Assembly (NCBI GenBank): GCA_903916195.1
Contig: CAIWVP010000177.1
Coordinates: forward strand, 1 to 36,263
Origin: an uncultured Verrucomicrobiota bacterium
Lineage (GTDB): Bacteria; Verrucomicrobiota; Verrucomicrobiia; Limisphaerales; UBA9464
Reading direction: 5' to 3'
Length of the DNA stretch: 36,263 nt
Shown piece by piece: positions 15,536 through 34,692 of this stretch (its first letter is position 1; the number at the start of each line of letters is the position of its first letter). The notes beneath the pieces were generated by a model. That model was given only the letters and a program-made list of their open reading frames with translations, was not told where the DNA came from and made no database searches. A program made the position numbers and the translations under genes.

Positions 15536-15629
15536 CCGGCGATCTTGACCCACGTGTCCGCCGCGTCCGATCGAGCCCGGTCCCGCCGGGCGCATTGACC
15601 CGAAGTCCGGCGCTTGCACATTGTCCGAG

Positions 15630-17264
15630 ATGTCCGCGGCCCCGCTTGCCCCCCCCCCTGCGCCTCCGGCCGCATCGGTGCCGGCGGTGCGCTGGGATCG
15701 GCCGTTCTTGGCGCTGCTCGCGGCGCTCTGGACGTGGGCGATCGGCATCGATGCTCCCTTCTGGCAGACCAATCCGGACTACTCGTACGGCTTCATCGTG
15801 CCGGTCCTGACGGTTTTCTACCTCTGGAAGCGGCTCGGCCAAGCAGACCCGCCGGCATGGCAGGTCGCCACAGGCGGAGCGGTTGGCCGACGTCGGTTGA
15901 ACCCCTGGCTGTTGGCGATCCCGGCGCTCGGGCTGTTCCCGCTGGAGGTCTACCGCATCGAATATTTCCAGTCCGGCATCGTGCTCTGGGTGATCAACCT
16001 CGCAACGGTCGGCTTCACCTTGGCCGGGGCGTGGTGGTTGGGTGGACGACGGTTCGTCGCGACGGTGGCGTTCCCGGTCCTGTTCTTCCTCACCGCGGTC
16101 CCGTGGCCCGCGAAGATCGCCACGCCGGTGCAGCAGGCCTTGATGACGAACGTCGCACAGGTCGTGTCGGAGATGCTCCTGTGGCTCGGTGTGCCGGTGC
16201 AGCTCGACGGCGCGGTGCTGCACCTCACCAAAGGCCCGGTCGGGATCGTCGAAGCGTGCAGCGGCATCCGGTCGCTCCAGTCGGGCCTCATGGTGAGCCT
16301 GGCGGTCGGCGAGCTTCTGTGGCTGACGCGGCGGCGGCGGATCGGGTTGGTCGCCTTCGCGGTGTTGCTGGCCCTGACCAGCAACCTCGTCCGGACCTTC
16401 ACGCTCTGCTGGATCATGGAGAAGAGCGGCGGCGACGCGATGCACAAGGCCCACGACGTGGTGGGCAACATCGCGATGTATTCGCTCTACGCGCTCATCT
16501 ACGGGGTCGGGAAACTGCTCGAGCCGCGCGGCGGCGCCCCTTGGCCGGAAGGCGCGGGAGGGCCGTGGAAGGCGCGTCTCGCCGGGCTGCGCTGGACCAC
16601 GGTGCCGGAACTGCGGCCGCTCCTCGCCGCCAGCGCGCTGATGTTCGCCGTCGTGCACGGTTGGTACCACCTGCTCACCCTCCAGGTGAGACCGCAGACG
16701 ACCCCCTACTTCATCGCGAAGATCGACAAGGCCTCGGGCACCGAGAAGCAACCGTTCGACGAGCAGGTCTGGGGACGTCTCGGCGCCACCGAAGGCGAAC
16801 AGGTCCGGCACCGGACGCCGATGGCACCGGCGGGTTTCGTGGACGCCTACCACCTCTTCTGGCGGCCATCGCCGATGAGCAAGACGGCGCTGCACCACCG
16901 ACCGGACATCTGCATGCCCGGTTCCGGTTGGAAGCAGGTCGGTGAGGTCGAGACCGTCGAGGCATCGCTCGATGGACGCCCTTTGCGATGGCTGCTCTTC
17001 CGCTTCGAGAAAAGCGATCTGAAGGCGCTCCAACTCTGGGGCGTCTGGCGAAACGGCGAGCCGGTGGAGATGGATTATTCCGCCCGGATCTCCGTCCTGC
17101 CGGAGAGGTACCACCCCTTCCCCAGCGCCCGCCATCTGATGGGCGTCGAGCTGGTATCGGTCTTCCTGCCCTACCGCGGCGACGCGGCCCCGAAGACATC
17201 GACCCTCACCGCGATGCTCCCGCGGCTCTTCACCTATCGCCCGCCCGAGACGCCGGCGAAGTGA
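15630..17264 (+). CDS. Exosortase fused to an EpsI-like (DUF3485) domain
   Basis: A 544-residue polytopic membrane protein. Residues about 25-300 are an exosortase/archaeosortase domain with an entry motif [11 protein letters not shown] and the catalytic triad C210 ([12 protein letters not shown]), R255 (SNLVRTF) and H275 (HDVVGN). Such enzymes are thought to process PEP-CTERM-like sorting tags on exported proteins. After a further hydrophobic segment near 330-350, residues about 360-540 resemble EpsI, with [12 protein letters not shown] around C428. A Pro/Ala-rich cytoplasmic tail opens the protein. ATG 15630 is taken; TTG 15621 is possible. It is followed after 9 bp by a TPR membrane protein, probably co-transcribed. 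No sorting-tag substrate is recognised in the window. Confidence 0.9.
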
Positions 17265-17273
17265 CCCCCAGCC

Positions 17274-19022
17274 ATGTCGAAGACACCGGACACGGACCCT
17301 CCGAGACCAGGCGTCGTGCGGGTCGGTGGTTGGCGGAGGAATCCGCACAGGGGGCGGAACGCCCTGGTGACTTGGAGCGGTGCGCTGCTGCTGCTCGCGA
17401 TCGCTGCGATCGTCGCGTCCAAGGCGGTCTATCCGGCGATCAAGGTCGGACGCGGACGCGACCACGCGCTGGACGTCGAGCGGCTCCTTCGCCGGGGCGA
17501 ACCCAAGAAAGCATCTGACCAACTCAAGTTGGCGCTCTATTTCGCACCGGAGGACCCCGGGGTGCTCCGCACAGCCGCCCGTTACTGCTCCCTCCTGCGC
17601 CTGCCCCAAGGCCTGACCTACAACGAGATGCTGTTCGGCACCGGTCAAGCGACCGATGCCGACCGCCGCGGCTATGTCGAGTTGGCGGTGGTCCTGGGGC
17701 GCGTCGACCTGGCCGCCCGGCAACTGCGCGCGCTGCTGCAAGAGAACCCTGAGGACATCGGATTGCTCCACCTCCTGGTCCGCCAACAGCGCGCCGCCCG
17801 CGATCTGGCTTCCGCGACCAGGACCGCGCGTTTCGCCCTGTCGCTCCGGCCCGAGGAGGAGCGCAGCCAACTCGTGCTCGGACGGTTGCTCATGGACAGG
17901 CGCGACTCCCCTGCGCTCCGCTCGGAAGGACGCCGCCTGCTCTGGGGCCTCGCGGTCGGGGACGGCGCAGGCCACGACGATGCCACCGATCTCCTCAGCG
18001 GCGATCCGGACCTGTCCCGCAGCGAGCGGGACCTTCTCGCCAGGGCCGTGGCCGCCCGTCCCGGCAAGCGGCTGCGCGACCAACTGCTCCTCGCCGAGCT
18101 GCGCTTGCCGAGCGAACCTGGCCGCAGCAACGCGGCGGTCGCCGAGACCCTCCGCTCGCTCTGGCCGCAGGCGGACACGGACACGCTGCCCGTCATCGGC
18201 GATTGGGCCAGCCGCCACGGCGGATCGGGTGTCCTGCTGGAGCTGATCCCCGTCGATGCTGCCCACACCAACCGGATGTTGGCGCCGATGCGCGCTCTGG
18301 CGCTGGCCGATGCGCGGCGATGGGACGAGCTCGGGAAGGTGCTCAGCGAGGCCGCCGGCCCGCTGAGCTCCTTTGTCTCGACCAGCCTCAAGGGCCGCCT
18401 TGCCCTTGCCCGTGACCGCCGCGCCGAGGCCGAAGGGCATCTCCTCGCGGCCATCGAGCTGCCCGGCCTGTCGGTCAGCCAGTGCCGCTTCATCGCGCGC
18501 GGATCGGAGCGCGCCGGCTTCACCCGCCTCGCCATCCGGGCCTGGCAACGGATCCAGACGGACCCCGAGGAATCGGTCGGTGCCTGCCTGCAGGTGCTGC
18601 GGCTCGCGCGCCCGTTGGACGACACGCCGCTGGTGTTCGACACCGTCAAACGTCTGAACGACTTCATCCCGGGCGACGATCTGGTGGCAGGCGAGCGCGC
18701 CTGGTTCGAGCTGTTGCTCAAGCAAGGGATCGAACACGGCAAGGACACCGCGGCGATGCTGGCGAAGAAGTACCCGGGAGAACCGCGCTGGCGTTATCTC
18801 GCGGCCTTGGCAGAGCTGCGCGGAGGACGGCCGGAGACGGCGCTTTCGATGGTCGAGGCAGACCTTGGCCGCTGGACCGAGCTGGAACCCCGGTGGCAGT
18901 TGGTCGGCGTTCTCGCCCTCGCGGAAAATCAGCGACGCGAGGCCGCGCGCGGTCTGGCCCGGCGCATCGACCCGAAGAAACTCCGTTCCGCCGAGCTCCA
19001 GTTGCTCACGCCTTGGCTGTGA
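17274..19022 (+). CDS. Membrane-anchored TPR-type repeat protein
   Basis: A 582-residue protein with a basic, Pro-rich N-terminus, one membrane segment at about residues 30-52 (ALVTWSGALLLLAIAAIVAS) and then a long helical repeat region. The repeats have degenerate TPR character: Leu/Ala/Arg-rich pairs such as GEPKKASDQLKLALYFAPEDPGVL and ARDLASATRTARFALSLRPEEERSQLVLGRLL. No catalytic motif is visible. The orientation suggests a periplasmic scaffold. It follows the exosortase gene by 9 bp, so a role in exosortase-linked export or polysaccharide assembly is plausible but only inferred. It converges on the decaheme cytochrome gene with a 15-bp gap. Confidence 0.75.
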   Translation: MSKTPDTDPPRPGVVRVGGWRRNPHRGRNALVTWSGALLLLAIAAIVASKAVYPAIKVGRGRDHALDVERLLRRGEPKKASDQLKLALYFAPEDPGVLRTAARYCSLLRLPQGLTYNEMLFGTGQATDADRRGYVELAVVLGRVDLAARQLRALLQENPEDIGLLHLLVRQQRAARDLASATRTARFALSLRPEEERSQLVLGRLLMDRRDSPALRSEGRRLLWGLAVGDGAGHDDATDLLSGDPDLSRSERDLLARAVAARPGKRLRDQLLLAELRLPSEPGRSNAAVAETLRSLWPQADTDTLPVIGDWASRHGGSGVLLELIPVDAAHTNRMLAPMRALALADARRWDELGKVLSEAAGPLSSFVSTSLKGRLALARDRRAEAEGHLLAAIELPGLSVSQCRFIARGSERAGFTRLAIRAWQRIQTDPEESVGACLQVLRLARPLDDTPLVFDTVKRLNDFIPGDDLVAGERAWFELLLKQGIEHGKDTAAMLAKKYPGEPRWRYLAALAELRGGRPETALSMVEADLGRWTELEPRWQLVGVLALAENQRREAARGLARRIDPKKLRSAELQLLTPWL

Positions 19023-19037: not shown

Positions 19038-20714
19038 TCACCGCGAGCGGAGCAGATGGTAGGTGTGGCAAGAGGTGCATTCCGAGCGGGCGCTGCCGCC
19101 CGGCTTGTGGCACCCGGCGCACGAGGCCTGCGACGGCAGATTGATGTCGGAAGTCGTGCGGCTCTCGTGGACCGCGTGGCATCCGACGCAACTCATCTGG
19201 CCGTGCTTCGCATGGGTGAAGCGTCCGCCCAGGAGCCAACGATCCGGGATCACCGGGCGCGTCACCTTCGCGAGCGAGGCGGTATCGGGAAGGACCTCGT
19301 GGCAGTAGGCGCAACCGGCGTAGTGGGCCCGCCGTTCGGCGCTGATCCCGAGCTGGGCCTGCCGCGGATCGCCGGTGAAGAACACCAGCTTCTCCAGCGA
19401 TTCACCGCCGCCGAAGGTCTGCCGCATCCGGGCGACGTTCTGCTGCGCGAACGCATCGACTTCGTCCCGGCGAGGCGGACTTCCTGCCGCGACCAACTCC
19501 TTCGTCTTGATCTCGGCGTAGAGCAATGGTAGGCCGCGCAGCTTCGCCCGGACGGCGGCGACCTCACCATGCGGGAGCTTAAGCTCCGGATGCACGGGGT
19601 CGAACTGCAGGTCGTGGCAGGCTGCGCAATGCTGGTCGTAGCGGATCCGCGCCATGTACGAGCCCGTGGCGTCCGGCACGTGGCAATCGACGCACCCGAG
19701 CGGATTCCCGCCCAAGCGGACGGTCCCGCTGAGATGCAGGGCGTGGTTGAACTTCAAGGTGTCCGGGTCCTTCAGGCCGCCCGCGCGAACGCCGAAATCC
19801 GGATGCCCCTGCCCGAACGAAGCGATCAAGTTCGTGCGACCGCCCGGCGGGCGCGGGGTCCGGAAGGCGATCAAGCCCGCTTGGACCGGCGGGTCGAACC
19901 GCTCTGACCCGATGCCCCGCCCTTTGGCGGACGACTGCTGCATCACGTCCGCGTGGTCATGGCAATGTGCGCACTGCACATCTTCCGGCGCGACCATCGC
20001 GAGCCCTTGGTGCTCGACGTGGCAGACCGAGCACGAATGACCTTGGACCACGTTGGGCTGATGGAACTCATGCTGGTCGTGGCAGACGGCGCACGATTGT
20101 CGGTCGATGGCGCTCATCGGGACCACCCCGTCCGGGACCTTCGCGAACTGGTCCTTCCCGAAAGGCGCCGGATGCGAGCGCAACGCCATCTGGGGCCAAG
20201 AAGCGATGTCCGAAGCGGCCGCACCATGGCAGGCGGCACAACTGTTCGGCGCATCGAGCCTTTCTTTGGCAACGCGGGCGAAGGAATCGCCCTGGTGAGG
20301 TCTCGACACGGGCCGAGGCGAGAGGATCCGCCAACGCCATCCGCTTCCGAGCCCGATGAGCAGGCACGCGACGGTCACAACGACCACCACAAGGGTGGTC
20401 CGGCCGCGGAGATTCCGGAGCGTCCGCTGCGGTGCGCAGACCAAGGCCGGGCATCCGCACGAACCATCCGGCCGGGGGCCATCGGCGCACGGCCCGCCGT
20501 GTTCCTTGGCCCGGGTGCAGCGCCATGAGCCCTTGTCTTCGCCCGGAAGTTTGTCCAGGACCGGACGGCAATCGGCGGTCGCCCGGCAAACACCTCCCGT
20601 GGTCGGGCCCATGCGGCACGGTTTCCCGTCGCAAGCATGACCGCAGACCCACGCATCGGACGGTCGTTCGTAGCGCGCAGGATCAGATCCAGGCGATGGC
20701 AGATTGTCGGTCAT
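19038..20714 (-). CDS. Membrane-anchored decaheme c-type cytochrome with Cys-rich N-terminal segment
   Basis: This 558-residue protein has ten CxxCH haem c motifs: CAACH, CAVCH, CSVCH, CAHCH, CVDCH, CAACH, CAYCH, CVGCH, CAGCH and CTSCH. All follow a single membrane segment at about residues 106-124, so the haem domain is presumably periplasmic. Before the membrane segment is a roughly 95-residue part with ten cysteines (C24, C28, C33, C43, C49, C66, C76, C86, C88, C93) and no CxxCH, presumably cytoplasmic, which could bind metal. ATG 20714 overlaps the stop of the cytochrome b gene by 1 bp (TGATG). It is the last gene of the operon and would be the terminal electron carrier. The longer open frame to 20990 lies inside the upstream gene. 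Confidence 0.88.
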   Translation of the reverse strand: MTDNLPSPGSDPARYERPSDAWVCGHACDGKPCRMGPTTGGVCRATADCRPVLDKLPGEDKGSWRCTRAKEHGGPCADGPRPDGSCGCPALVCAPQRTLRNLRGRTTLVVVVVTVACLLIGLGSGWRWRILSPRPVSRPHQGDSFARVAKERLDAPNSCAACHGAAASDIASWPQMALRSHPAPFGKDQFAKVPDGVVPMSAIDRQSCAVCHDQHEFHQPNVVQGHSCSVCHVEHQGLAMVAPEDVQCAHCHDHADVMQQSSAKGRGIGSERFDPPVQAGLIAFRTPRPPGGRTNLIASFGQGHPDFGVRAGGLKDPDTLKFNHALHLSGTVRLGGNPLGCVDCHVPDATGSYMARIRYDQHCAACHDLQFDPVHPELKLPHGEVAAVRAKLRGLPLLYAEIKTKELVAAGSPPRRDEVDAFAQQNVARMRQTFGGGESLEKLVFFTGDPRQAQLGISAERRAHYAGCAYCHEVLPDTASLAKVTRPVIPDRWLLGGRFTHAKHGQMSCVGCHAVHESRTTSDINLPSQASCAGCHKPGGSARSECTSCHTYHLLRSR

Positions 20715-21547
20715 CAGTTGGCCCCTGCCCCTCCCGAGAACGCGAAGACGATCACGACGTGGAGGAAGGTCAGGATGAGCAGGCTGTAGGTGAGCGGGAT
20801 GTGCACGAACAGCCAGAGCTTCAGGCTCAACTGCAAGGATCGCTGGTAATCCAGGCCATCCTTCTGCGCGACCATCACCGCGAGTTCTCCGAGCACCTTG
20901 CGCTGATCCGGGGCGAGGAACCGGTCGAGGTCGGCGATGAGGGCTTTGATCCGCATCAAAGGGCTCCGCACCTCGGCAAGATGCCTCCATCCGTTCATCG
21001 GCCGCCCGAGGAACCCGGCCAAGTGGAGCTTGTAGAAATCCGCGACCGCGGTGGACCGGGTCGTCGCGACGGACGCCAAAGCCAGCGCCTCGGCATCCTC
21101 GGCCAGCTTGCGGCGGATCATAGGGATGCGCTCGTAGAGCGCCTCACATCCGCGGGCCGTCAGCCGACGCGGCACGATCCGCGACCAGACGAGCCCGACC
21201 ACCCCGCTCGCGGCGACCGCCAGGTAGAGCGAAGCCAACACCGCTTCGAATGCTCCGGACGGCCAACGCCAACCGGTGTGGACGAAGAAGAGAGCGAGCG
21301 AGAAGTAGCCGACGTAGGCATGGATCTGGAGCCAGGTCCTGGAGTTCCCGAGGGGAAGGAACGGGAGCTTCTTCCGCGCGTTGTAGGCCGTGAGGAACAA
21401 GCAGACGGCAAGCAGGAACCAACCGGTTAGGTAGGCGAGATGCCGCATCACCGGGACCAGCTGCCGGTGTCCCCAGAACAAAGCGACCACGGCCGCGAGC
21501 AGCAGCACCACCCCGGAAAGACGACGTTTTATGGTGGTGCGCATCAT
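20714..21547 (-). CDS. b-type membrane cytochrome (probable quinone/haem b subunit)
   Basis: A 277-residue membrane protein with about five hydrophobic segments (roughly 11-27, 37-55, 73-92, 103-122 and 243-270). H76 and H90 lie in one helix and H249 and H263 in another, each pair 14 residues apart, which is the spacing that ligates two stacked b haems in cytochrome b-type bundles. A soluble helical loop occupies about 128-240. It resembles no single named family closely to my eye; a di-haem b561 or ferric-reductase-like fold is the best guess. ATG 21547 overlaps the upstream ferredoxin gene's stop by 4 bp. It could link the cytoplasmic Fe-S subunit to the periplasmic decaheme cytochrome. Confidence 0.75.
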   Translation of the reverse strand: MMRTTIKRRLSGVVLLLAAVVALFWGHRQLVPVMRHLAYLTGWFLLAVCLFLTAYNARKKLPFLPLGNSRTWLQIHAYVGYFSLALFFVHTGWRWPSGAFEAVLASLYLAVAASGVVGLVWSRIVPRRLTARGCEALYERIPMIRRKLAEDAEALALASVATTRSTAVADFYKLHLAGFLGRPMNGWRHLAEVRSPLMRIKALIADLDRFLAPDQRKVLGELAVMVAQKDGLDYQRSLQLSLKLWLFVHIPLTYSLLILTFLHVVIVFAFSGGAGAN

Positions 21548-23286
21548 CGGTTCAACCAGGTGGCGAAGGTGTCGAGCCGGGTCATGTCCATGCGCTTCAA
21601 AGCATCATGAGGACAGGCCCGTTCACAAGCGGGCCCGCCGTACTGGTCGATGCAATGGTCGCACTTGGTCGCCTTGAGGATGGGTCTGTACTCCTTGTCC
21701 GTCACGAAGTCCCCGCCTGGATCACGCGCCTCGACCATGCGGATGGCGTCGTACGGGCAGTTGTTCGCGCAGCTCGTGCAACCGATGCACGTCGCCTGGT
21801 TGATCACCACGTCGCCGGCCGAGGCGTCGCGGTGGATCGCCCCGGTCGGGCAACCGATCATGCAGACGGGGTCCACGCAATGCATGCAGGACTGCGCCAC
21901 CTGGATGCCGGAACTGACCGGCCCTTGGCGGAGGAACCGGGGGTTGTTGTCATGGGTCGCCGCGCAGGCACGGACGCAGTCATCGCACCGCGTGCAGCGG
22001 GCGAGATCGATGACCATCGTCGCCGTGCCGTTGAAGATCCGGCGGCCCGTCAGGAACTCCATGAGCTCCGGTCCGATCCGTTGCGCGAAGCCGCCCTGCT
22101 CCTTCAGCGGGTCGTCATCGTCGACATCGAGCTCGTCCGGGGTGAGCGGCCTGGGCAGAAGCGAGTTCGGCGCACCGGGCAGCACGACCTGCTCCATGAC
22201 CCGGGTCGGAACGAAGAGCGTGTGGGTATACCCGATGACGCGGAGCGAGTACTGGAAGGGGACCGCTGAACCGGGGTCCCGCCAATTGTGGGTGATCTCC
22301 CGCAGGCCGAACCACCGCCCCGCCCCGAGGTAGTTCAAGGTGCGCTGGCCGCTGCCGAAGCGCTTGGAGAGGCGCCCGAACCCGGACCGGATGAAGATCA
22401 CCCCGTCCGGATAATCGCCCTCTTGGGCGATGACCGTTTCTTTGTCGATCGAGTTCGTTCCGGCCTTCGCGAGCTTCTTGTAGTCCCCGGACCAGTCGTA
22501 TTCGCCGTAGGTCCCGAACTGGGTCTGGGCGGCCACCTGGGCGAGCTGCTCCTCGTCGAGATGCTGGAAGATGGGGAACGAACGAAGGGCGTTCGAAAGG
22601 GTGTTCTTTCGATAGAGCGCGTCGATGTGCGCCCGGAGCGCAGGGTCGTGCTTCAGGATGTCGCGGAGCCCCTGCCACCGGATCTCCAGCAGCTCCGCGT
22701 CGTCGGAATCGCACAGGATGGTCGCGGTCCGCGGCATGCGGCTGAGGGCCGCGATCTCGCCGAAGAACTCGCCCGGGCCGAGGGTCACCGTCTTGCTCTT
22801 CCCGATCAGCCGGGGCACATCCTGCAAAAAGACCCTCGAACCGCTCTCCGCGTCCGCGCTTCCTCCGCCGCCCAGTTCCTCAGGGGTACGGACCTCGGGG
22901 TTCCGATGGTTCGCCCAAAGCTGCGCGACCGCGCGGAAGACCGACCGCTTCGCCGGTTCGCGACGGCCGAGCACCCTGTCCGGGAGGCCGGGAGGCAACA
23001 CGACGCGGACGTCCCCGCTCACGATCATGAACGCGGAGGACCCGTAGTCGCCGGCGCGGACGATGATCTCCCCGCGCTTGAAGCGGCGGAGCCGGGTATC
23101 GCTCTGGAGGATCATCCGGAGCGGTTGCTTCTTCGAGAAGCTCGCCGGGTCCATGTCCTTGAACGGCGCGAGCGCAGCGATGCGATCGAGATCCGTCTCC
23201 GGGAACTCCGGGTCGAACGGATTATCCTGACGTCCGAGGCGCTCGACCTGGTTCCTTGGCGTGTCCATAGGTTCGGAAGCAGACAC
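21544..23286 (-). CDS. Double cyclic-nucleotide-binding-domain protein fused to a four-cluster ferredoxin
   Basis: A 580-residue cytoplasmic protein. CNB domain 1 (about 40-225) has GEIIVRAGDYGSSAFMIVSGDVRVV and a phosphate-binding cassette FGEIAALSRMPRTAT (175-189) with the cyclic-nucleotide Arg at R186; it is interrupted by a roughly 65-residue insert. CNB domain 2 (about 236-365) keeps the fold pattern but lacks a recognisable cassette Arg. Residues 430-560 carry sixteen cysteines in four groups: C431/434/437/441, C467/470/475/479, C500/503/506/510 and C542/545/554/558, like DmsB/NrfC-type electron-transfer subunits. GTG 23286 directly follows the upstream TAG; ATG 23268 is the alternative start. 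Electron flow gated by cyclic nucleotide is an inference. Confidence 0.85.
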   Translation of the reverse strand: MSASEPMDTPRNQVERLGRQDNPFDPEFPETDLDRIAALAPFKDMDPASFSKKQPLRMILQSDTRLRRFKRGEIIVRAGDYGSSAFMIVSGDVRVVLPPGLPDRVLGRREPAKRSVFRAVAQLWANHRNPEVRTPEELGGGGSADAESGSRVFLQDVPRLIGKSKTVTLGPGEFFGEIAALSRMPRTATILCDSDDAELLEIRWQGLRDILKHDPALRAHIDALYRKNTLSNALRSFPIFQHLDEEQLAQVAAQTQFGTYGEYDWSGDYKKLAKAGTNSIDKETVIAQEGDYPDGVIFIRSGFGRLSKRFGSGQRTLNYLGAGRWFGLREITHNWRDPGSAVPFQYSLRVIGYTHTLFVPTRVMEQVVLPGAPNSLLPRPLTPDELDVDDDDPLKEQGGFAQRIGPELMEFLTGRRIFNGTATMVIDLARCTRCDDCVRACAATHDNNPRFLRQGPVSSGIQVAQSCMHCVDPVCMIGCPTGAIHRDASAGDVVINQATCIGCTSCANNCPYDAIRMVEARDPGGDFVTDKEYRPILKATKCDHCIDQYGGPACERACPHDALKRMDMTRLDTFATWLNR

Positions 23287-24591
23287 CTAGGCGTCGAGCA
23301 CGAGATCGCCCTTCGGCCGGCAGACGCAGGTGAGGCAAGACCCGGCCTCTCCCGGATCAGCCTTGGACAGATACTCCACCTCGCCTTCCTTCACGGCCAC
23401 CGAACAGGAACCGCAGCTGCCGGCGCAGCAGCCGGAATCGATCCGGACCTCGTTGGCGCGAGCGAAGTCGAGAAGGTTCAAGAGCGACGGATCCCAGCGC
23501 ACGACCTTCCCGGATTTTCCGAAGGTGACGTTGACCACCTTGCCACCGGCCTCGGCCTTGGAGAGGGCCGGCGTATCGCTCGTCTTCTTGATGGTCGCGG
23601 GGCCGAACGCCTCGTAGTGGATCTTCGCATCGGGCACGCCCCAACCGATCAACCCTTCGTACATCGACTTCATGAACGACCCGTTGCCGCACATGTAGTA
23701 GTCGTAGTTGCTGGACGGCAGGACCGCCTTGAGCACGTCGGCCGTGAGCCGGCCCGCCGTGTGGAAATCCTTGCCCTGGACGTCCGCGGGGCCGGGCTTC
23801 GAGTAGCAGACGTGGAGCCGGATGTTGTCGCACCGGGCCGCGAGTTGCTCGACCTCGGCCTTGAGCATGTGGTCGGCCCGGCTGCGACAGACGAAGAAGA
23901 ACCAGGTCTCGCGCTCCGACCCGATGGCGGCGATCTCGCGGGCCATCGACAGGACGGGCGTGACGCCGACGCCGGCGCTGATCAATACGACGGGCGTCTG
24001 CTTCTCCGTCTCGAGGAAGAAGTGGCCGCCGGGCGCCTTGACGTTGAGGATGTCGCCGTCCTTGACCCCATCAGCGAAGAAGCTGGACCCGACTCCGGGC
24101 GGTACGCCGGGTTTATCGGACGGGGCTTTCTCCTTCTTGATGGTGACGCGGTAGAAATCGCGGTCCGAAGGTGCCGAGCTCAGCGAGTAGCAGCGCACCA
24201 CCTGTTTGTCCCGTCCGGGGATATCAAGACCGAAGGTGAGATACTGGCCGGGCTTGAAGGCCGGGATCGCCTTCCCGTCGTGCGGCTTGAGCACGAAAGA
24301 GAAGACATCCTCGCATTCATGGAGCTTCTCGGCGACCCGGAACTTGCGCCACCCGTTCCAAGAAGATTTCTCCTGCTCCGTCTGGTCCCACCGGCTCTTC
24401 GCGAGCCGGACCTCGTACGCGAGCCGCTCGCTCTCGAGCGCGAACTGCCTCCGCTGCTGCGCCAACCTCCGTACGGAGCTGACGACCGCCAGGCCTGTCT
24501 GGGCAGCCACGGCAGCGAGCAGCCCGAAGCCGATCGCCAGCCCCGGGTTTGCCCGCGCACTTTCCGCCGAGATCAGTAGAAGGGTTTGCAT
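23287..24591 (-). CDS. Membrane-anchored FAD/NAD(P)H oxidoreductase with C-terminal 2Fe-2S ferredoxin domain
   Basis: A 434-residue reductase. A hydrophobic segment (about 15-40) and a charged helical linker (42-75) precede a ferredoxin-reductase-type FAD domain with RCYSLSSAP (133-141). The NAD(P)-binding domain follows, with ISAGVGVTPVLSM (204-216) and MCGNGSFM (300-307). The C-terminal plant-type ferredoxin domain has C388-x4-C393-x2-C396 and C422. The order FNR then 2Fe-2S is that of phenol-hydroxylase or Hmp/NqrF-like reductases, but the operon context differs. It is the first gene of the four-gene operon and would accept electrons from NAD(P)H. ATG 24591 lies 60 bp from the divergent tetraheme cytochrome gene. 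Confidence 0.9.
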   Translation of the reverse strand: MQTLLLISAESARANPGLAIGFGLLAAVAAQTGLAVVSSVRRLAQQRRQFALESERLAYEVRLAKSRWDQTEQEKSSWNGWRKFRVAEKLHECEDVFSFVLKPHDGKAIPAFKPGQYLTFGLDIPGRDKQVVRCYSLSSAPSDRDFYRVTIKKEKAPSDKPGVPPGVGSSFFADGVKDGDILNVKAPGGHFFLETEKQTPVVLISAGVGVTPVLSMAREIAAIGSERETWFFFVCRSRADHMLKAEVEQLAARCDNIRLHVCYSKPGPADVQGKDFHTAGRLTADVLKAVLPSSNYDYYMCGNGSFMKSMYEGLIGWGVPDAKIHYEAFGPATIKKTSDTPALSKAEAGGKVVNVTFGKSGKVVRWDPSLLNLLDFARANEVRIDSGCCAGSCGSCSVAVKEGEVEYLSKADPGEAGSCLTCVCRPKGDLVLDA

Positions 24592-24651
24592 CGCGCTGCC
24601 AAATTAAGTATCAATCGAGGTGTGCGAAGTAAACTTCTTTGCTGGACCCGG

Positions 24652-25779
24652 ATGAGTTTCTTTGCCCGCCTCCGCGCGATTTCTTTCGGTGCGGTCCTTT
24701 CCCTCGCGGTGACACCTTCGCGCGCGGAATCGGCGCTGGCCCGCTACATCGGCGCCAGCTCCTGCGCCACGGCTTCGTGCCACGGCGGAGCCGGGGACCA
24801 GCGCGACCAATGGGTCCGCTGGAACGCCAAGGACGTCCACCGCCGCTCAGGCGCGACGCTGACCATGGCGAGATCGGTGCAGATCGGCGCTGCCGCCGGC
24901 ATCCGCGACGTGGCGGACGACGCCCGCTGCACGGTCTGCCATGCGCCTTTCGCCGGCGTCCCGACCGCACAGCGCATCGGTCCGCTCGACCGCGGCGACG
25001 GCGTCTCCTGCGAGACCTGCCACGGACCGGCCGAACCCTGGATCCGGGCGCACACCCGCACCGCGAAGGACGGCTACACGCACAGCGACAAGGTCGCCGC
25101 CGGCCTCCGCGACCTGCGCAACCCGTACGTTCGCGCCAACACCTGCGTCTCCTGCCACGAGAACGTCGACCGCGAACTCCTGAAGGCCGGACATCCGGAG
25201 CTCATCTTCGAGCTCGACGGCCAGACGGCAGCGGAACCTCGGCACTGGATGGAACGCACCGGTTGGGACGGCGGCCGCGCGTGGCTCGTCGGCCAGGCGG
25301 TCGCGCTCCGCGAAGTGAGCTGGCAGCTCGCCCGTCCGGGACAATCCGACAGTCGCTTGGTCGCCCGCCAAGCCGGCCTGCTCTGGGTGGTCCAACGCGC
25401 TTCGCGGGCCATCGGCCTGGACACCTTCGCATCCCTCGCCGTGCAGTCCTCGGCCGACAAGATCCGCGTCGCCGCCGACGACCTCGCAAAAGACGTCGCC
25501 TCCCGACCTTGGGCTCCCGGGCTGACCGCCGCCGTGCTCAAGCAGCTCGCTTCGGCCGCCGAGGAATTCCGGGACGCCGGGACGCCCTCGGAGATCCAAG
25601 CCCGTCGGGGCGAACGTCTCGTGCTGGCGCTCGACCGGTTGCTCGCCGCCTCCGACCGTGCCTTGGAGACCCGCCTCGATGCCGAGATGAAAGAGCTCTT
25701 CCGACTCGCCCAATCGTTGCCCGATTTCGATCCGGCCAAATTCGCCGCCGCATTGGAGAAGTTCGCCGCGAAGCTCTGA
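24652..25779 (+). CDS. Exported tetraheme cytochrome c (cytochrome c554-like)
   Basis: A 375-residue periplasmic protein with a signal peptide (RLRAISFGAVLSLAVTPSRA). Its four haem sites are C38-x4-C43-H44 (CATASCH, an unusual four-residue gap), CTVCH (93-97), CETCHGP (120-124) and CVSCH (165-169). Distal His residues are visible (DVHRRSGAT, RAHTRT, GHPEL), and GVSCETCHGPAEPW is typical of cytochrome c554-type multihaem proteins. The C-terminal half (about 215-375) is helical and haem-free. The open frame starts earlier, but ATG 24652 fits the signal peptide. It is divergent from the flavin/Fe-S/cytochrome operon across only 60 bp, so a shared control region and redox partnership are likely. 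Confidence 0.88.
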   Translation: MSFFARLRAISFGAVLSLAVTPSRAESALARYIGASSCATASCHGGAGDQRDQWVRWNAKDVHRRSGATLTMARSVQIGAAAGIRDVADDARCTVCHAPFAGVPTAQRIGPLDRGDGVSCETCHGPAEPWIRAHTRTAKDGYTHSDKVAAGLRDLRNPYVRANTCVSCHENVDRELLKAGHPELIFELDGQTAAEPRHWMERTGWDGGRAWLVGQAVALREVSWQLARPGQSDSRLVARQAGLLWVVQRASRAIGLDTFASLAVQSSADKIRVAADDLAKDVASRPWAPGLTAAVLKQLASAAEEFRDAGTPSEIQARRGERLVLALDRLLAASDRALETRLDAEMKELFRLAQSLPDFDPAKFAAALEKFAAKL

Positions 25780-29883: not shown

Positions 29884-29981
29884 CCTCGTCGCCAAGGACC
29901 CGAAGCCGCGCGTGGCGGCAATTGCCGGATCCAGCGTGAAGAATCGCTCGCCTCGGTCCGTCATTGCACGCCAGCTTACCG

Positions 29982-32900
29982 ATGATGCGACACGGCCATC
30001 CGATCCGCTGGGCAACGACGCTCCTGGGAGCCGCCGCTTTCGTCGCGTGCGGCGCGGCGGGGCCGGAGACGGCGGAGTTCTTCGAGAAGCGCATCCGGCC
30101 CGTCCTCGCCGAGCACTGCTTCGAGTGCCATTCCGCTGATAGCAAGAAGCTGAAGGGCGGCCTTCGCGCGGATTCCCGCGCGGGATTGCTCACGGGCGGC
30201 GACACCCGGTCCGCCATCGTGCCCGGATCCGCGGAGAAGAGCCTGCTCATCGAGGCCGTCCGCTATCGCGATGCGAACCTCCAGATGCCTCCGAAAGGCC
30301 GCCTGCCGGACAGCGTCGTGGCCGATCTCGCCGCGTGGATCGACCAAGGGGCGATGTTCCCGGAAGCGGAGACCGGAACCGTCCAAGCACGGCCCGGAGC
30401 GGAGCCGGACAAGAAGCCGGACCACTGGGCCTTCCAACCGGTCCGCGCGGTCCGGCCGCCCTCCGGGTCCGGCAACGATCCCGACCCCAAGAACCCGATC
30501 GACCGCTTCATCGCGGCGAAGCTCGCCGAACACGGACTCGTCCCGGCCCCGCCCGCCGACCGGCGCACCTTCATCCGCCGCGTCGCGTACGATCTCACCG
30601 GGCTGCCCCCCGGACCGGGCGAGGTCGAAGCCTTCGAGGCGGACCGCGCACCGGACGCGGCCGGACGCCTCGTGGAGCGTCTGCTCGCGTCGCCGGGCTA
30701 TGGCGAGCGATGGGGGCGGTGGTGGCTCGACGTGGCGCGCTACGCCGACACGAACGGGCAGGACGAGAACAAAGTGATGGCCAACGCGTGGCGTTATCGC
30801 GACTGGGTCATCCGCGCCTTCAACGAGGACAAACCGTTCGACCAGTTCACCACCGAACAGCTCGCCGGCGACCTCATGCCGACCGAAGGAGTGCCCGAGG
30901 GGAAGGTGTTCGACCGCTGGACGGCCACCGGCCTGCTGGTGATGGGCCCGAAGATGCTGGCCGAACAGGACAAGCCCAAGCTGGTGATGGACCTCGTCGA
31001 CGAGCAGATCGACGTCGTGAGCCGCGCGTTCCTCGGCCTGACCGTCGGGTGCGCGCGCTGCCACGACCACAAGTTCGACCCCATCGCGGCACGCGACTAC
31101 TACGCCTTGGCCGGCATCTTCAAGAGCACGCGCTCGATGGAGAACCTAGATTTCGTCTCCAAGTTCAACGAGCGACGGATCGCCTCGCGCGACCAGCTTG
31201 CCGCCATCGAAGCGCACGAGCAATCGACCGCCGCGAATGCGAAAGCCTTGGGATCTGCGGTCCACGCGGCCGATGTCGCGCTGGTCGCCGGCCGCCGATC
31301 CGGGTTCGGCGGCTATCTCGCCGCCGCCACCAAAGGATCCTCGGAGACCGCCGCGGCGGACCCGGAGATCGTCGGACGCCTCCGATCCTTGCTCTCGGCC
31401 GATCCGGCGACCAACACCGTCAGCCGGACCCTGCGGGCTGCGGCGGGGTCGCCGGACCGCCTCGCGATATTGCTCGGTGCGGCGGATGCCGATGCCGGAG
31501 CCGCGACCGGTCTGCGGCTCGGCCCCGGCAAGGTCGGCGCCGGATTCGTCGCGACCGGATCGAACCATCTCGAACTGCCGCACTCGGCTGCGTTCGACCC
31601 GGCGAAGCTGACGGTCGAGACCTGGGTCCGGGCCAAAGAGTTCGAGAAAGGCGGCGACACGCGGCGTTGGCTGGTCGACAAGAACGCCAATGAATGGACC
31701 GAGGGCCACTACGCCCTGGTCCTCGACCGCGATCGTGCCGGCGCCTACCTCAACATCGGCGGCGGCAAGGAGAACGTCTTCGCGGTCTGGAGCACAGGTC
31801 CCGCGCTCAAGCCCGGGCAGTGGCATCATCTCGCTTTCACCTACGACGGCTCCAAGCTACGGCTCTTCGTGGACGGAAATCCTTCCGGTGATCTGGCGGT
31901 CGATCGATCGCGGGTCCCAGGCACGACACCGCTCGCGCTCGCGAAGCGCCAGGACGGCTACATCCACTTCAAAGGCGAGCTCGACGAGGTCCGCGTCTTC
32001 GACCACGCCCTGGATGCGGCGCGGATCAAGGACCATTTCATCCATCCCGGGGATGCGCCCGGCGAAGGCGTCGTCGCCCGATGGGGATTCGATGATCTCA
32101 CCGACGCGCAGCGCGACGCCGTCGCCGTCGCCGAGACGCGCGAGGTGTTGTCCGCTCCCGACGGGATCCTGGCCTTGCCCAAGGACGCCCGGTCCCTCTA
32201 TCCGCCCGCGACCCGCGATGCCCTCACCGCATTGGACCGCGAGCGCGACGCCCTCAAGGCCGCGGCGCCGGAACCCGCCGCGTTCGCGCTCGCCGTCGCT
32301 GAGGACAAACCCGTCGAGTTGCCGATCCACATCCGAGGCAGCCACCTCAACCTGGCAAAGGACCCGGTCCCCCGGGGATTTATCCGTGCCGCGGAGACCG
32401 GCGCTTCGCCGAAGATCCCGGCGGACCGCAGCGGACGCCTAGAACTGGCCGGTTGGCTCACAAACCCAGAGAATCCTCTCACGTCCCGGGTCATCGTGAA
32501 CCGGATCTGGCAGGCGCACTTCGGCGAGGGCCTCGTCCGCACGCCGGACAATTTCGGCGTCCGCGGCGAGACCCCGAGCCATCCAGAACTGCTCGATTGG
32601 CTCGCCGTCGAATTCATCCGGTCCGGTTGGAGCGTCAAGGCGATGCACCGGTTGATCATCGGTTCGAAGACCTACCAGCGATCGGCGATCGCGCCGCAAC
32701 CGGCCGGTTCTGCGGACCCCGACAACCGCCTGCTCAGCCGGTTCCCGCGCCAGAGGCTCGAAGCGGAGATGGTGCGGGACGCGCTCCTCGCGGTCTCCGG
32801 CCGGCTCGACCGCACGACGGGCGGTTCGCTCACGAGATGGAAGAACGACGACTACGTCCCTGGCGACGAACCGACCGCAGGATCGCAGCGCCGGTCCGTC

Positions 32901-33278
32901 TACCTTCCCATCGTGCGCGACCGCGTCTACGACGTCTTCACCATCTTCGACTTCGCCAATCCGAGCGTCGGGATGTCGAAGCGGACCCCGACGGTCGTCT
33001 CCCACCAGGCGTTGTTCTTCCTCAACAGCCCGCTGGTGAAAGACTGCGCCCGCGCTCTGGCGGAGACCGTCCTCGCGACACCATCACGGGATGAGGCCGC
33101 GCGGGTCGGCCTGGCCTTTCGTCGTGCCTTCGACCGGGCCCCGACCTCGCAAGAAACCGACCTCGCGCTCCGGTTCCTCGTCGTCGCCGCTCGCGGGGAC
33201 GGTCGACGGCAGAAGGCCGCCTGGTCGGCCCTCTGCCAGACCTTGTTCGCGGCGAACGAGTTCGTTTATCGCGACTGA
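29982..33278 (+). CDS. PSCyt1-DUF1549-LamG-DUF1553 protein (planctomycete-type cytochrome)
   Basis: A 1,098-residue exported protein. An N-terminal signal (ATTLLGAAAFVACG) could be a lipoprotein signal with Cys in FVAC. PSCyt1 follows with EHCFECHSADSKKLKGGLRAD (haem motif C46-x2-C49-H50). DUF1549/PSCyt2 covers roughly 150-370 and has a second haem-like CARCHDHKFDPI near residue 357. A LamG/concanavalin-like domain is inserted at about 507-706 (LTVETWVRA, WHHLAFTYDGSKLRLFVDG, GELDEVRVFDHAL). DUF1553 is at about 817-1090 (NPLTSRVIVNRIWQAHFG, GVRGETPSHPELLDWLA, RRSVYLPIVRD). The family is abundant in PVC bacteria, often with sulfatases and sugar degradation, but its biochemistry is unknown. ATG 29982 is taken over the upstream TTG. 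It is 4 bp before its usual DUF1501 partner. Confidence 0.9.
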   Translation: MMRHGHPIRWATTLLGAAAFVACGAAGPETAEFFEKRIRPVLAEHCFECHSADSKKLKGGLRADSRAGLLTGGDTRSAIVPGSAEKSLLIEAVRYRDANLQMPPKGRLPDSVVADLAAWIDQGAMFPEAETGTVQARPGAEPDKKPDHWAFQPVRAVRPPSGSGNDPDPKNPIDRFIAAKLAEHGLVPAPPADRRTFIRRVAYDLTGLPPGPGEVEAFEADRAPDAAGRLVERLLASPGYGERWGRWWLDVARYADTNGQDENKVMANAWRYRDWVIRAFNEDKPFDQFTTEQLAGDLMPTEGVPEGKVFDRWTATGLLVMGPKMLAEQDKPKLVMDLVDEQIDVVSRAFLGLTVGCARCHDHKFDPIAARDYYALAGIFKSTRSMENLDFVSKFNERRIASRDQLAAIEAHEQSTAANAKALGSAVHAADVALVAGRRSGFGGYLAAATKGSSETAAADPEIVGRLRSLLSADPATNTVSRTLRAAAGSPDRLAILLGAADADAGAATGLRLGPGKVGAGFVATGSNHLELPHSAAFDPAKLTVETWVRAKEFEKGGDTRRWLVDKNANEWTEGHYALVLDRDRAGAYLNIGGGKENVFAVWSTGPALKPGQWHHLAFTYDGSKLRLFVDGNPSGDLAVDRSRVPGTTPLALAKRQDGYIHFKGELDEVRVFDHALDAARIKDHFIHPGDAPGEGVVARWGFDDLTDAQRDAVAVAETREVLSAPDGILALPKDARSLYPPATRDALTALDRERDALKAAAPEPAAFALAVAEDKPVELPIHIRGSHLNLAKDPVPRGFIRAAETGASPKIPADRSGRLELAGWLTNPENPLTSRVIVNRIWQAHFGEGLVRTPDNFGVRGETPSHPELLDWLAVEFIRSGWSVKAMHRLIIGSKTYQRSAIAPQPAGSADPDNRLLSRFPRQRLEAEMVRDALLAVSGRLDRTTGGSLTRWKNDDYVPGDEPTAGSQRRSVYLPIVRDRVYDVFTIFDFANPSVGMSKRTPTVVSHQALFFLNSPLVKDCARALAETVLATPSRDEAARVGLAFRRAFDRAPTSQETDLALRFLVVAARGDGRRQKAAWSALCQTLFAANEFVYRD

Positions 33279-33282
33279 CCCC

Positions 33283-34692
33283 ATGCCACACGACCTTCCT
33301 CCTCCCGTCTCGCGACGGCAGATGCTCCGGCAATGCAGCGCCGGGTTCGGCAACCTCGCGCTGCTTGGGATGTTGTCGTCGATGGACCGTGCGACGGCAG
33401 CGCCGTTGTCCGGGCCGTTGGCGGCCCGTCCGCCGCGGATCCGGCCGCGAGCCAAGCGGGTCATCTTCCTCTTCATGCACGGCGGCCCGTCGCACGTGGA
33501 CACCTTCGACCACAAGCCGCTCCTCATACGGGATTCCGGGAAACCCCTTCCCTTCGCCAAGCCCCGGGTCCAGTTCGCGAAGACCGCGAACTTGTATGGA
33601 TCGCCCTGGGAGTTCCGTCCGTACGGCCGATGCGGGGCGATGGTCAGCGATCTGTTCCCGCTCGTCGGCTCGTGCGCGGACGACCTGTGCATGGTCAAAT
33701 CCATCCACGGCACCAACGAGGCGCACGGCGGCGCGCTCCTCAAATTGCACACGGGATCCGATACCTTCGTCCGCCCCAGCATGGGTTCCTGGATCTCGTA
33801 CGGCCTCGGCACCGAGAACCAGAACCTGCCGAGCTTCATCACGGTCAATCCGACGCTCGGCCATGGCGGCGTCGGGAACTATTCCAGCGGCTTCCTTCCG
33901 GCGGTCCATCACGGCACGCGGATCGGCGGCGGCGAACCGATCGAGAAGGCCACGATCAAGTATCTGCACGACCCCGACGAAGACGCACCGCTCCAACGGG
34001 CGCAGCTCGATCTCCTCGGGGAGATGAACCGCGGTCACCTCACGCAGGCGGGTGCCGACCCGGCGCTCGAAGCCCGCATCGAATCTTTCGAACTCGCCTT
34101 CCGCATGCAGACCGAGGCACCGGAAGTCCTCGACCTGCGCGGCGAGACCGATGCCACGAAAGCCCTCTACGGTCTCGACGACCCGAAGACCGCCTCGTTC
34201 GCGAGGCAGTGCATGCTCGCCCGACGATTCAGCGAACGCGGGGTCCGCTTCGTCCAGGTCACGCACGGCTACTGGGACCAGCACGGAGACCTCACCAAGG
34301 ACCACGGACGTCTGGCGCACGAAGTGGACCGACCGATCGCCGGCCTGTTGAAGGACCTGAAATCGAGGGGACTGCTGGACGAAACCTTGGTCTTATGGGG
34401 GGGCGAGTTCGGCCGGACACCTACCCTCCAAGGGAACGACGGGCGGGACCACCATCCTCATGCGTTCACGATGTGGATGGCCGGCGGCGGGGTGAAGGCC
34501 GGCTCAAGCTACGGCATCACCGACGACTACGGTTTCTACTGCTCGGACCAAAAAGTCCACGTCCACGACCTGCACGCGACGATGTTGGCGTTGCTCGGGA
34601 TGGACCATGAGGCGCTCACCTATCGCCATGCCGGACGCGACTTCCGGTTGACCGACGTCCACGGAAGGGTCGTGTCCGAGATCTTTGCTTGA
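33283..34692 (+). CDS. DUF1501 family exported protein
   Basis: A 469-residue protein with a twin-arginine-like signal (SRRQMLRQCSAGFGNLALLGML). Signature stretches of DUF1501 are clear: AKRVIFLFMHGGPSHVDTFDHKP, GTNEAHGGALLKLHTG, VTHGYWDQHGDLTKDHG, LVLWGGEFGRTPTLQGNDGRDHHPHAF and HVHDLHATMLALLGMDH. These Asp/His clusters place it in the alkaline-phosphatase/sulfatase-like superfamily, so a metal-dependent hydrolase is plausible, but no substrate is established. It begins 4 bp after the DUF1553 gene, the typical PVC pair, and the two are surely co-transcribed. Confidence 0.92.
   Translation: MPHDLPPPVSRRQMLRQCSAGFGNLALLGMLSSMDRATAAPLSGPLAARPPRIRPRAKRVIFLFMHGGPSHVDTFDHKPLLIRDSGKPLPFAKPRVQFAKTANLYGSPWEFRPYGRCGAMVSDLFPLVGSCADDLCMVKSIHGTNEAHGGALLKLHTGSDTFVRPSMGSWISYGLGTENQNLPSFITVNPTLGHGGVGNYSSGFLPAVHHGTRIGGGEPIEKATIKYLHDPDEDAPLQRAQLDLLGEMNRGHLTQAGADPALEARIESFELAFRMQTEAPEVLDLRGETDATKALYGLDDPKTASFARQCMLARRFSERGVRFVQVTHGYWDQHGDLTKDHGRLAHEVDRPIAGLLKDLKSRGLLDETLVLWGGEFGRTPTLQGNDGRDHHPHAFTMWMAGGGVKAGSSYGITDDYGFYCSDQKVHVHDLHATMLALLGMDHEALTYRHAGRDFRLTDVHGRVVSEIFA

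Follow-up and report, generated by a model that had tools for sequence, protein, structure and literature searches.

A conserved gene set for a candidate NAD(P)H-linked trans-envelope electron conduit with cyclic-nucleotide-binding domains

A 36,263-nucleotide contig from the draft genome of an uncultured Verrucomicrobiota bacterium (contig CAIWVP010000177.1 of assembly GCA_903916195.1, G000:C177 in our labels; genome of 4.39 Mb, 96% complete), analysed whole and hereafter referred to as the window, carries a run of four minus-strand genes encoding an NAD(P)H flavoprotein, a ferredoxin fused to two cyclic-nucleotide-binding (CNB) domains (hereafter, CNB-ferredoxin), a membrane cytochrome b-like protein and a membrane-anchored decaheme cytochrome c, beside a divergent gene for a tetraheme cytochrome. 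Here we report that this set is real, widespread and, as far as our searches reach, undescribed. The four-gene order is conserved far beyond chance in Verrucomicrobiota, and the gene set probably encodes a trans-envelope electron conduit linked to NAD(P)H, whose iron–sulfur subunit might place it under the control of cyclic AMP (cAMP) or cyclic GMP (cGMP). The five genes are as follows.

23287–24591, minus strand: NAD(P)H flavoprotein, 434 amino acids (aa), with FAD, NAD(P) and [2Fe-2S] domains; first gene of the run
21544–23286, minus strand: CNB-ferredoxin, a fusion of a double CNB and a 4x[4Fe-4S] ferredoxin, 580 aa, GTG start
20714–21547, minus strand: membrane cytochrome b-like protein, DUF4405-like, 277 aa, with His76/His90 and His249/His263
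19038–20714, minus strand: membrane-anchored decaheme cytochrome c, 558 aa, 10 CXXCH motifs
24652–25779, plus strand: secreted tetraheme cytochrome, C554-like, divergent and 60 base pairs from the flavoprotein gene

An earlier reading of the sequence alone had proposed a cyclic-nucleotide-gated electron-transfer complex of the four minus-strand genes, with the tetraheme cytochrome gene alongside, and all five are present where it placed them, apart from the start of the decaheme gene. The decaheme itself and its ten CXXCH motifs stand, with the start moved from 20990 in the open-reading-frame (ORF) list to 20714 because of conservation and the TGATG overlap. The gene junctions (TAG-GTG, ATGA and TGATG) are also as described, but the fixed stoichiometry drawn from them does not follow from gene overlap.

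Conservation of the gene set in two phyla

A search with the CNB-ferredoxin at E ≤ 1e-20 gave 17 positives among 58 genomes, namely that of the window and its relatives, and a search at E ≤ 1e-40 gave 14 in a phylum-wide sample of 387 genomes. We retrieved 34 neighbourhoods. The canonical set is represented by 24 loci from 22 genomes, the window counted. Of these loci, 20 have the genes for flavoprotein, CNB-ferredoxin, cytochrome b and decaheme in this order on one strand, and contig ends interrupt the remaining four, two of which (L059 and L060) probably represent a single locus in two halves; at L053 the run contains a 1.1-kb gap. L044, from a Verrucomicrobia metagenome-assembled genome with a 95%-identical CNB-ferredoxin, is counted among the canonical loci and is not independent. 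Co-occurrence in other genomes had been named beforehand as a point on which the proposal would turn, and we found both content and order conserved, with the core recurring in Pseudomonadota.

The tetraheme C554 gene is divergent from, and adjoins, the flavoprotein gene in 19 of the 24 canonical loci by tblastn. An ORF-based scan flagged it in only 14, a lower count explained by the length to which some ORFs extend in open frames. Of the five loci without this arrangement, three are at contig ends, L053 has no such gene and L070 has it on the opposite side.

The cytochrome b profile matches 18 of 299 Pseudomonadota genomes, whose neighbourhoods comprise 12 loci resembling a variant termed A′, five of a second variant, type B, and a more distant one (L118); L082 is another distant locus. 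Within the reach of the retrieved stretches, the 12 A′-like loci contain the flavoprotein in 11 (not L113), the CNB-ferredoxin in 11 (not L112), the eight-cysteine (8-Cys) domain of the decaheme in 11 (not L109) and the tetraheme cytochrome in ten (not L112 or L113). The type-B CNB-ferredoxin is joined in one protein to a pyridine-nucleotide oxidoreductase of the YpdA/thioredoxin-reductase type, as identified by a family search on L119 and, for the other type-B proteins, by length and likeness. The cytochrome b tree places type B together (100/100) and intermixes the Verrucomicrobiota and Pseudomonadota A′ sequences; transfer between phyla is suggested, at forks that are moderately supported (84/90 and 91/81) and where long branches meet.

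A contig search with the CNB-ferredoxin as the single query returned one close relative, L023, apparently the same record as L044, and two Nitrospirota genomes searched gave no match. L024–L027 were rejected as relatives, their neighbours reading as hydrogenase or molybdoenzyme-type clusters and the matches being the Fe-S subunits of these. A plasmid search with the window CNB-ferredoxin gave no match, and one with the type-B fusion gave 12 Sphingobium plasmid records. Among these, pMSHV of S. herbicidovorans (L133) is a 959-kb plasmid typed as conjugative, and the other 11 are typed as non-mobilizable.

Some loci depart from the common arrangement. At L077:8355–10857 (G178) lies a second copy with broken CNB-ferredoxin and cytochrome b frames, perhaps a decaying paralogue. 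At L062:300–2873 (G052), a CNB-CNB-4x[4Fe-4S] segment stands behind NuoG-like 2Fe-2S and Fe-S domains in an 857-aa protein, with a NuoF-like fragment upstream, representing a second way to attach the CNB-ferredoxin to an NADH-linked enzyme. L063:836–6108 (G056) is a shorter version with CNB-ferredoxin, cytochrome b, decaheme, C554 and a further gene, F2 (see below); the flavoprotein was not found on this 8.9-kb contig.

Elsewhere in the window, positions 15621–19022 encode an exosortase (PF09721), whose tail weakly resembles DUF3485, and a TPR protein; these genes converge on the decaheme gene and are kept in part of the genus only. Positions 29964–34692 encode a PSCyt1/PSCyt2/PSD1 protein with a laminin-G-like domain, followed by a DUF1501 protein, a pair that we take to be typical of planctomycete-type cytochrome genes.

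Predicted subunits, cyclic-nucleotide binding and electron path

The domains considered below lie within the CNB-ferredoxin and decaheme genes.

22723–22764, minus strand: phosphate-binding cassette of the first CNB domain (CNB-A), FGEIAALSRMPRTA, with E177 and R186
22186–22452, minus strand: second CNB domain (CNB-B), a recognised domain without the Glu/Arg pair (WFGLREITHNW); best Pfam stretch, residues 279–367
21613–21996, minus strand: 4x[4Fe-4S] domain of the CNB-ferredoxin, residues 431–558, 16 Cys
20430–20651, minus strand: Cys-rich domain of the decaheme, a duplicated W-C..C..GP..G.C..C unit with 8 invariant Cys

The CNB-ferredoxin matches PF00027 at 91.1 bits (cut-off, 27.5), and its Fer4 families are also above cut-off. 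The proposed double-CNB ferredoxin is upheld in that both CNB domains are recognised and four [4Fe-4S] sites are present, with the qualification that only CNB-A keeps the canonical phosphate-binding cassette in the window. The 16 cluster cysteines are invariant in 22 canonical and eight variant CNB-ferredoxins, fragments included, and likewise in an alignment with Pseudomonadota relatives. In CNB-A, G176, E177 and R186 are invariant across the 22-row alignment A1, and Glu and Arg are both retained in 15 of 16 Pseudomonadota relatives. The FGE...R spacing presumably matches that of PKA regulatory subunits, the Glu/Arg cassette being what we take to be the signature of PKA-type domains. CNB-A of the window set probably binds a cyclic nucleotide.

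The genomic context bears on regulation. The window genome has three class III cyclase (PF00211) matches, one of them in an 89-aa frame. In three of the five type-B loci (L116, L117 and L119) and in S. herbicidovorans, the gene immediately after that for the decaheme is phosphodiesterase-like; L115 has a relative at a distance of nearly 5 kb, and type-B locus L120 gave none. The encoded proteins are related in sequence to CpdA and SpdA, although the four tested fall below the cut-offs for both (CpdA, acting on 3′,5′ substrates, 72–84 versus 225 bits; SpdA, 2′,3′, 133–140 versus 400 bits). FHA domains, in turn, occur in the CNB subunit and the flavoprotein of L069. Taken as sequence context, the cyclase and phosphodiesterase-like genes and the FHA domains lend support to possible regulation of the wire, and we regard gating of electron flow by a cyclic nucleotide as a real possibility that stops short of being probable.

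Alternatively, the CNB domains could be ligand-free docking modules on a wire that is real and not gated, a serious contender that also falls somewhat short of the probable. Several observations point this way and count against gating: the Glu/Arg pair of CNB-B is lost in types A and A′, where no row has GE and where the window domain is degenerate; L114 has lost the CNB-A Glu, and cyclic-nucleotide binding is thus not universal; and the FHA domains of L069 and of the L119 decaheme indicate that exchangeable interaction domains occur in the set. The docking explanation must nevertheless accommodate the near-complete retention of the CNB-A pair described above and the presence of phosphodiesterase-like and cyclase genes beside some loci. 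In L063 both cassettes are canonical, and in type B the CNB-B cassette is so in four of five proteins by motif scan, with GE seen in all five by alignment.

The flavoprotein matches FAD_binding_6 (PF00970), NAD_binding_1 (PF00175) and Fer2 (PF00111), all above the Pfam cut-offs, has a hydrophobic N-terminal stretch, seen by eye, and keeps its 2Fe-2S cysteines across the aligned homologues. It does not reach the cut-off of the curated NqrF model (99 versus 295 bits).

The 277-aa membrane protein matches no Pfam family above cut-off, DUF4405 (PF14358) scoring 15.9 against 26.7 bits; weak DUF4405 matches (E up to 1) occur in 18 of 26 members, the best at E = 3.2e-5, and by sequence no NrfD-like Pfam family appears in any of the 26 at E up to 1. 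His76, His90, His249 and His263 are kept in 31/31 Verrucomicrobiota and 19/19 Pseudomonadota rows. The predicted haem-b membrane protein can accordingly be kept and extended: a 14-residue spacing of histidines in each of two helices is, we assume, the pattern of di-heme cytochromes b, and the four histidines suggest that the protein carries two hemes b. Its charged loops suggest that His76 and His249 lie on the cytoplasmic side. A confident structure model (pLDDT 91.4) gave no PDB relative in Foldseek at E ≤ 0.001, and a VIA-align match to cytochrome b561 (4o6y; Z 7.2, root-mean-square deviation 3.5, 137 aligned) is not above the helical-bundle background.

The decaheme has ten CXXCH motifs in the window and in every listed Verrucomicrobiota homologue except the broken L075, and its profile best matches the solved high-molecular-weight cytochromes c (2e84, E = 4e-15). 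The structure model is weak (pLDDT 70.2, pTM 0.49), so the metal of the Cys-rich domain is not readable from it, and it gave no PDB relative in Foldseek at E ≤ 0.001. The eight cysteines of this N-terminal domain are conserved in 22/22 canonical and 8/8 variant rows, and the domain itself has neither a PDB match nor a Pfam match over cut-off. By charge, the N terminus would lie on the cytoplasmic side of the single helix, which would make the 8-Cys domain cytoplasmic; its cysteines might coordinate zinc or Fe-S clusters. We considered a role as an electron relay, to which its absence from the L063 decaheme, where the flavoprotein was also not found, lends some weight; a necessary relay, however, is hard to reconcile with type B, in which an FHA-like domain replaces it in both decahemes tested (L119 and S. 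herbicidovorans).

The tetraheme cytochrome has three CXXCH motifs and one CX4CH, scores 37 bits against Cytochrome_C554 (PF13435; cut-off, 20.8) and does not reach the OmcA/MtrC model TIGR03507 (15.5 versus 209 bits).

Gene order suggests that the subunits assemble into a physical complex, and the electron path that we infer, together with its cofactor occupancy and sidedness, would run as follows. Cytoplasmic NAD(P)H would reduce the FAD and [2Fe-2S] centre of the membrane-anchored flavoprotein, from which electrons would pass along the four [4Fe-4S] clusters of the CNB-ferredoxin. Two hemes b, ligated by His76/His249 near the cytoplasm and His90/His263 near the periplasm, would carry them across the membrane, to spread over the ten hemes of the membrane-anchored decaheme. 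A tetraheme shuttle could then deliver them to an outer-membrane barrel and a large decaheme (F1/F3, below) and on to an acceptor at the cell surface or outside the cell. The likely control input is cAMP or cGMP bound at CNB-A.

Partner genes F1, F2 and F3 and the direction of electron flow

Comparison of flanking genes across loci identified three further families, F1, F2 and F3, that often stand alongside the five genes first proposed; the set is thus larger than that proposal. F1 proteins (600–840 aa) end in LTY or FTY in 15/15 Verrucomicrobiota and type-B proteins inspected, and in LSY in S. herbicidovorans; this aromatic C terminus resembles that of many barrels, and F1 probably forms a barrel in the outer membrane. 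F2 proteins are HbpS-like, with PF03928 above cut-off in 4/4 tested. F3 is a decaheme of ~1,300 aa with ten CXXCH motifs in 14/14 inspected and LVIVD repeats in 3/3 tested; TIGR03507 (OmcA/MtrC) is not among the matches of two homologues tested. One full order, in L065, L066 and L068, has F2 and C554 divergent from the flavoprotein, CNB-ferredoxin, cytochrome b and decaheme genes, followed by F1 and F3. Ten Verrucomicrobiota loci have F3 within the retrieved flanks, and many of the stretches are too short to judge.

F3 (E ≤ 1e-40) occurs in 18 of the 58 genomes. After G052, which has the NuoG-like fusion and no F3, had been moved from the complex-positive to the negative group, F3 was present in 16/16 complex carriers (CNB-ferredoxin, E ≤ 1e-20) against 2/42 others (Fisher p = 1.9e-12), and at genus level in 9/9 against 1/23 (p = 3.6e-7), p-values that ignore phylogeny and whose significance is inflated by relatedness. 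The two F3-positive others are G042, a genome 57% complete, and G006, in which F3 sits at a contig end next to the flavoprotein and C554 genes. Across the phylum-wide sample, 11 of 387 genomes have F3: all eight canonical carriers, none of six A′ carriers, and G070, G223 and G314. Four of the 299 Pseudomonadota genomes have F3, all among the five type-B genomes (p = 1.5e-8); in the fifth, G601, F2 and F1 stand beside the complex, followed by the contig end.

On pMSHV, annotation and profiles agree on a C554-like gene (E = 8.7e-51), F2, F1 and F3 on one strand, neighbouring, on the opposite strand, genes for the metallophosphoesterase, decaheme, cytochrome b and CNB fusion. In strain MH the locus tags are B6S01_RS18455 for the CNB fusion, RS18450 for cytochrome b, RS18440 for the metallophosphoesterase and RS18425 for F3. 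S. herbicidovorans thus has all seven non-flavin families in common with Verrucomicrobiota, and its flavoprotein, fused to the CNB-ferredoxin, is unrelated. With an NAD(P)H flavoprotein of non-homologous origin in the same position, NAD(P)H exchange would seem to be part of the function.

On these associations, the window locus seems to supply the inner-membrane portion of a larger set that spans the envelope and includes F1, F2 and F3. In addition to the inflated significance, several observations weigh against this assignment: the F3, F1 and F2 genes of the window genome lie together on another contig (C85), away from the window locus; none of four F1 proteins tested is over a Pfam cut-off, a single Alginate_exp match falling below it; G070, G223 and G314 have F1-F2-F3 with neither the complex alongside nor a CNB-ferredoxin match at E ≤ 1e-40; and A′ loci are without F3, use other cytochromes and in some cases have another barrel-like protein.

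As a marker of every carrier, F3 failed: neither the six A′ carriers in the phylum-wide sample nor the 12 in Pseudomonadota have it. The second barrel-like protein, ending in KF or RF, is encoded in A′ loci L057:3037–6472, L058:2063–5601, L069:14702–18364, L103:2353–5966 and L104:2–1447, accompanied by a pentaheme cytochrome in all but L104, which is at a contig start; the pair is perhaps an alternative outer-membrane exit. In G070 (L126:6738–9173), which is among the genomes lacking a CNB-ferredoxin match, a gene for a class III cyclase domain with TPR stands beside F3.

Flow through the conduit is likely to be outward. C554-like cytochromes in other systems are periplasmic carriers or enzymes, and F3 weakly resembles ExtM of a selenite/tellurite operon over 51 residues; a periplasmic reductase system, in which C554 or F3 would pass electrons to a soluble acceptor in the periplasm, would fit both points, although the barrel-like F1 encoded next to F3 makes it improbable. 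An inward conduit, in which periplasmic or extracellular donors reduce cytoplasmic NAD(P)+, a mode of electron uptake comparable to the Hmc/Tmc-type links in sulfate reducers, is unlikelier still. The proposed cofactors could serve either direction, the decaheme profile is closest to the high-molecular-weight cytochromes c, and type-B loci L119 and, by eye, L115 have a gene for an NADP-specific glutamate dehydrogenase nearby. The potentials of c-type hemes, however, mostly exceed that of NAD(P)H, and no donor enzyme was noticed in the listed loci, where part of the flanking genes were identified. Equally unlikely is a quinone/cytochrome oxidoreductase in which cytochrome b exchanges with the menaquinone pool and the flavoprotein is a side entry: many four-helix cytochromes b carry quinone sites and L063 combines CNB-ferredoxin, heme b and decaheme with no flavoprotein found, but one of two unrelated NAD(P)H flavoproteins accompanies the set, separate in the 20 complete canonical loci and fused in type B (by Pfam on L119).

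Relation to known systems and implications

We found no published description of this gene set in the literature searched, the scope of which left out most subscription journals and preprints, and the view that no characterised complex has this composition is sustained there and among curated families, none of which is over its cut-off. Hmc, Tmc and DsrMKJOP are membrane complexes of sulfate reducers. With QrcABCD, a further such complex as described in the accessible parts of two reports (PMC13059093, PMC6303296), they resemble the window set in combining a multiheme cytochrome c, a multi-[4Fe-4S] subunit and a membrane subunit linking the periplasm to the membrane or cytoplasm. They differ in that their curated cut-offs are unmet (HmcB, 34 versus 420 bits; DsrO, 47 versus 200; QrcA, 15 versus 180), and in that the window set adds an NAD(P)H flavoprotein and CNB domains and has a membrane subunit without an NrfD-like match. 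The Ext selenite/tellurite operon (ExtM, ExtO) is alike by NCBIfam names, with multiheme c, b-type cytochrome and Fe-S subunits, but the F3–ExtM similarity is weak (53–64 bits against a cut-off of 800). We know of no CNB-ferredoxin in the anammox Rieske/cytochrome b complexes. These also differ in having the Rieske protein, and the accessible part of PMC12954380 gives a proposal that they contribute to NAD(P)H formation.

DUF4405 cytochromes, as far as the accessible text of PMC11334425 describes them, have four central conserved histidines, as does the window cytochrome b, and are proposed to transfer electrons across the membrane, with heme b shown for one protein. The members in that text accompany flavinylated proteins, whereas those of the window set accompany multiheme cytochromes and the window score is under the cut-off; the term 'cyclic nucleotide' is absent from its main text. 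Within the same phylum, clusters of a barrel and multiheme cytochromes in freshwater Verrucomicrobia have been proposed for extracellular electron transfer, with the inner-membrane partner given as 'ET in IM' (PMC5615132, accessible part). A multiheme cytochrome encoded beside a barrel, putative in the case of F1, would be common to both, but the adjacent cytochromes there have eight heme sites and F3, compared by description only, has ten CXXCH motifs and LVIVD repeats. Its main text does not mention NADH, ferredoxin or cytochrome b.

S. herbicidovorans is a cultured soil bacterium with the type-B set, and export, direction and cAMP/cGMP control are therefore genetically testable. Most known cytochrome conduits of the outer membrane draw on the quinone pool, whereas the window set looks to be fed by NAD(P)H directly, through a sensor-bearing iron–sulfur subunit. 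As such, the window locus is a concrete candidate for the 'ET in IM' step outlined in the accessible text of PMC5615132, though with a different outer-membrane cytochrome. We tentatively propose, below the level of confidence given to the conduit itself, a conduit common to Verrucomicrobiota and Pseudomonadota and switched allosterically by cAMP/cGMP, in which the messenger would bind the iron–sulfur wire itself and open or close the flow from NAD(P)H to the exterior, and in which flavoprotein heads and sensor or docking domains (CNB, FHA and 8-Cys) would be exchangeable. If CNB gating is true, second-messenger signalling would be coupled straight to a redox wire without transcription.

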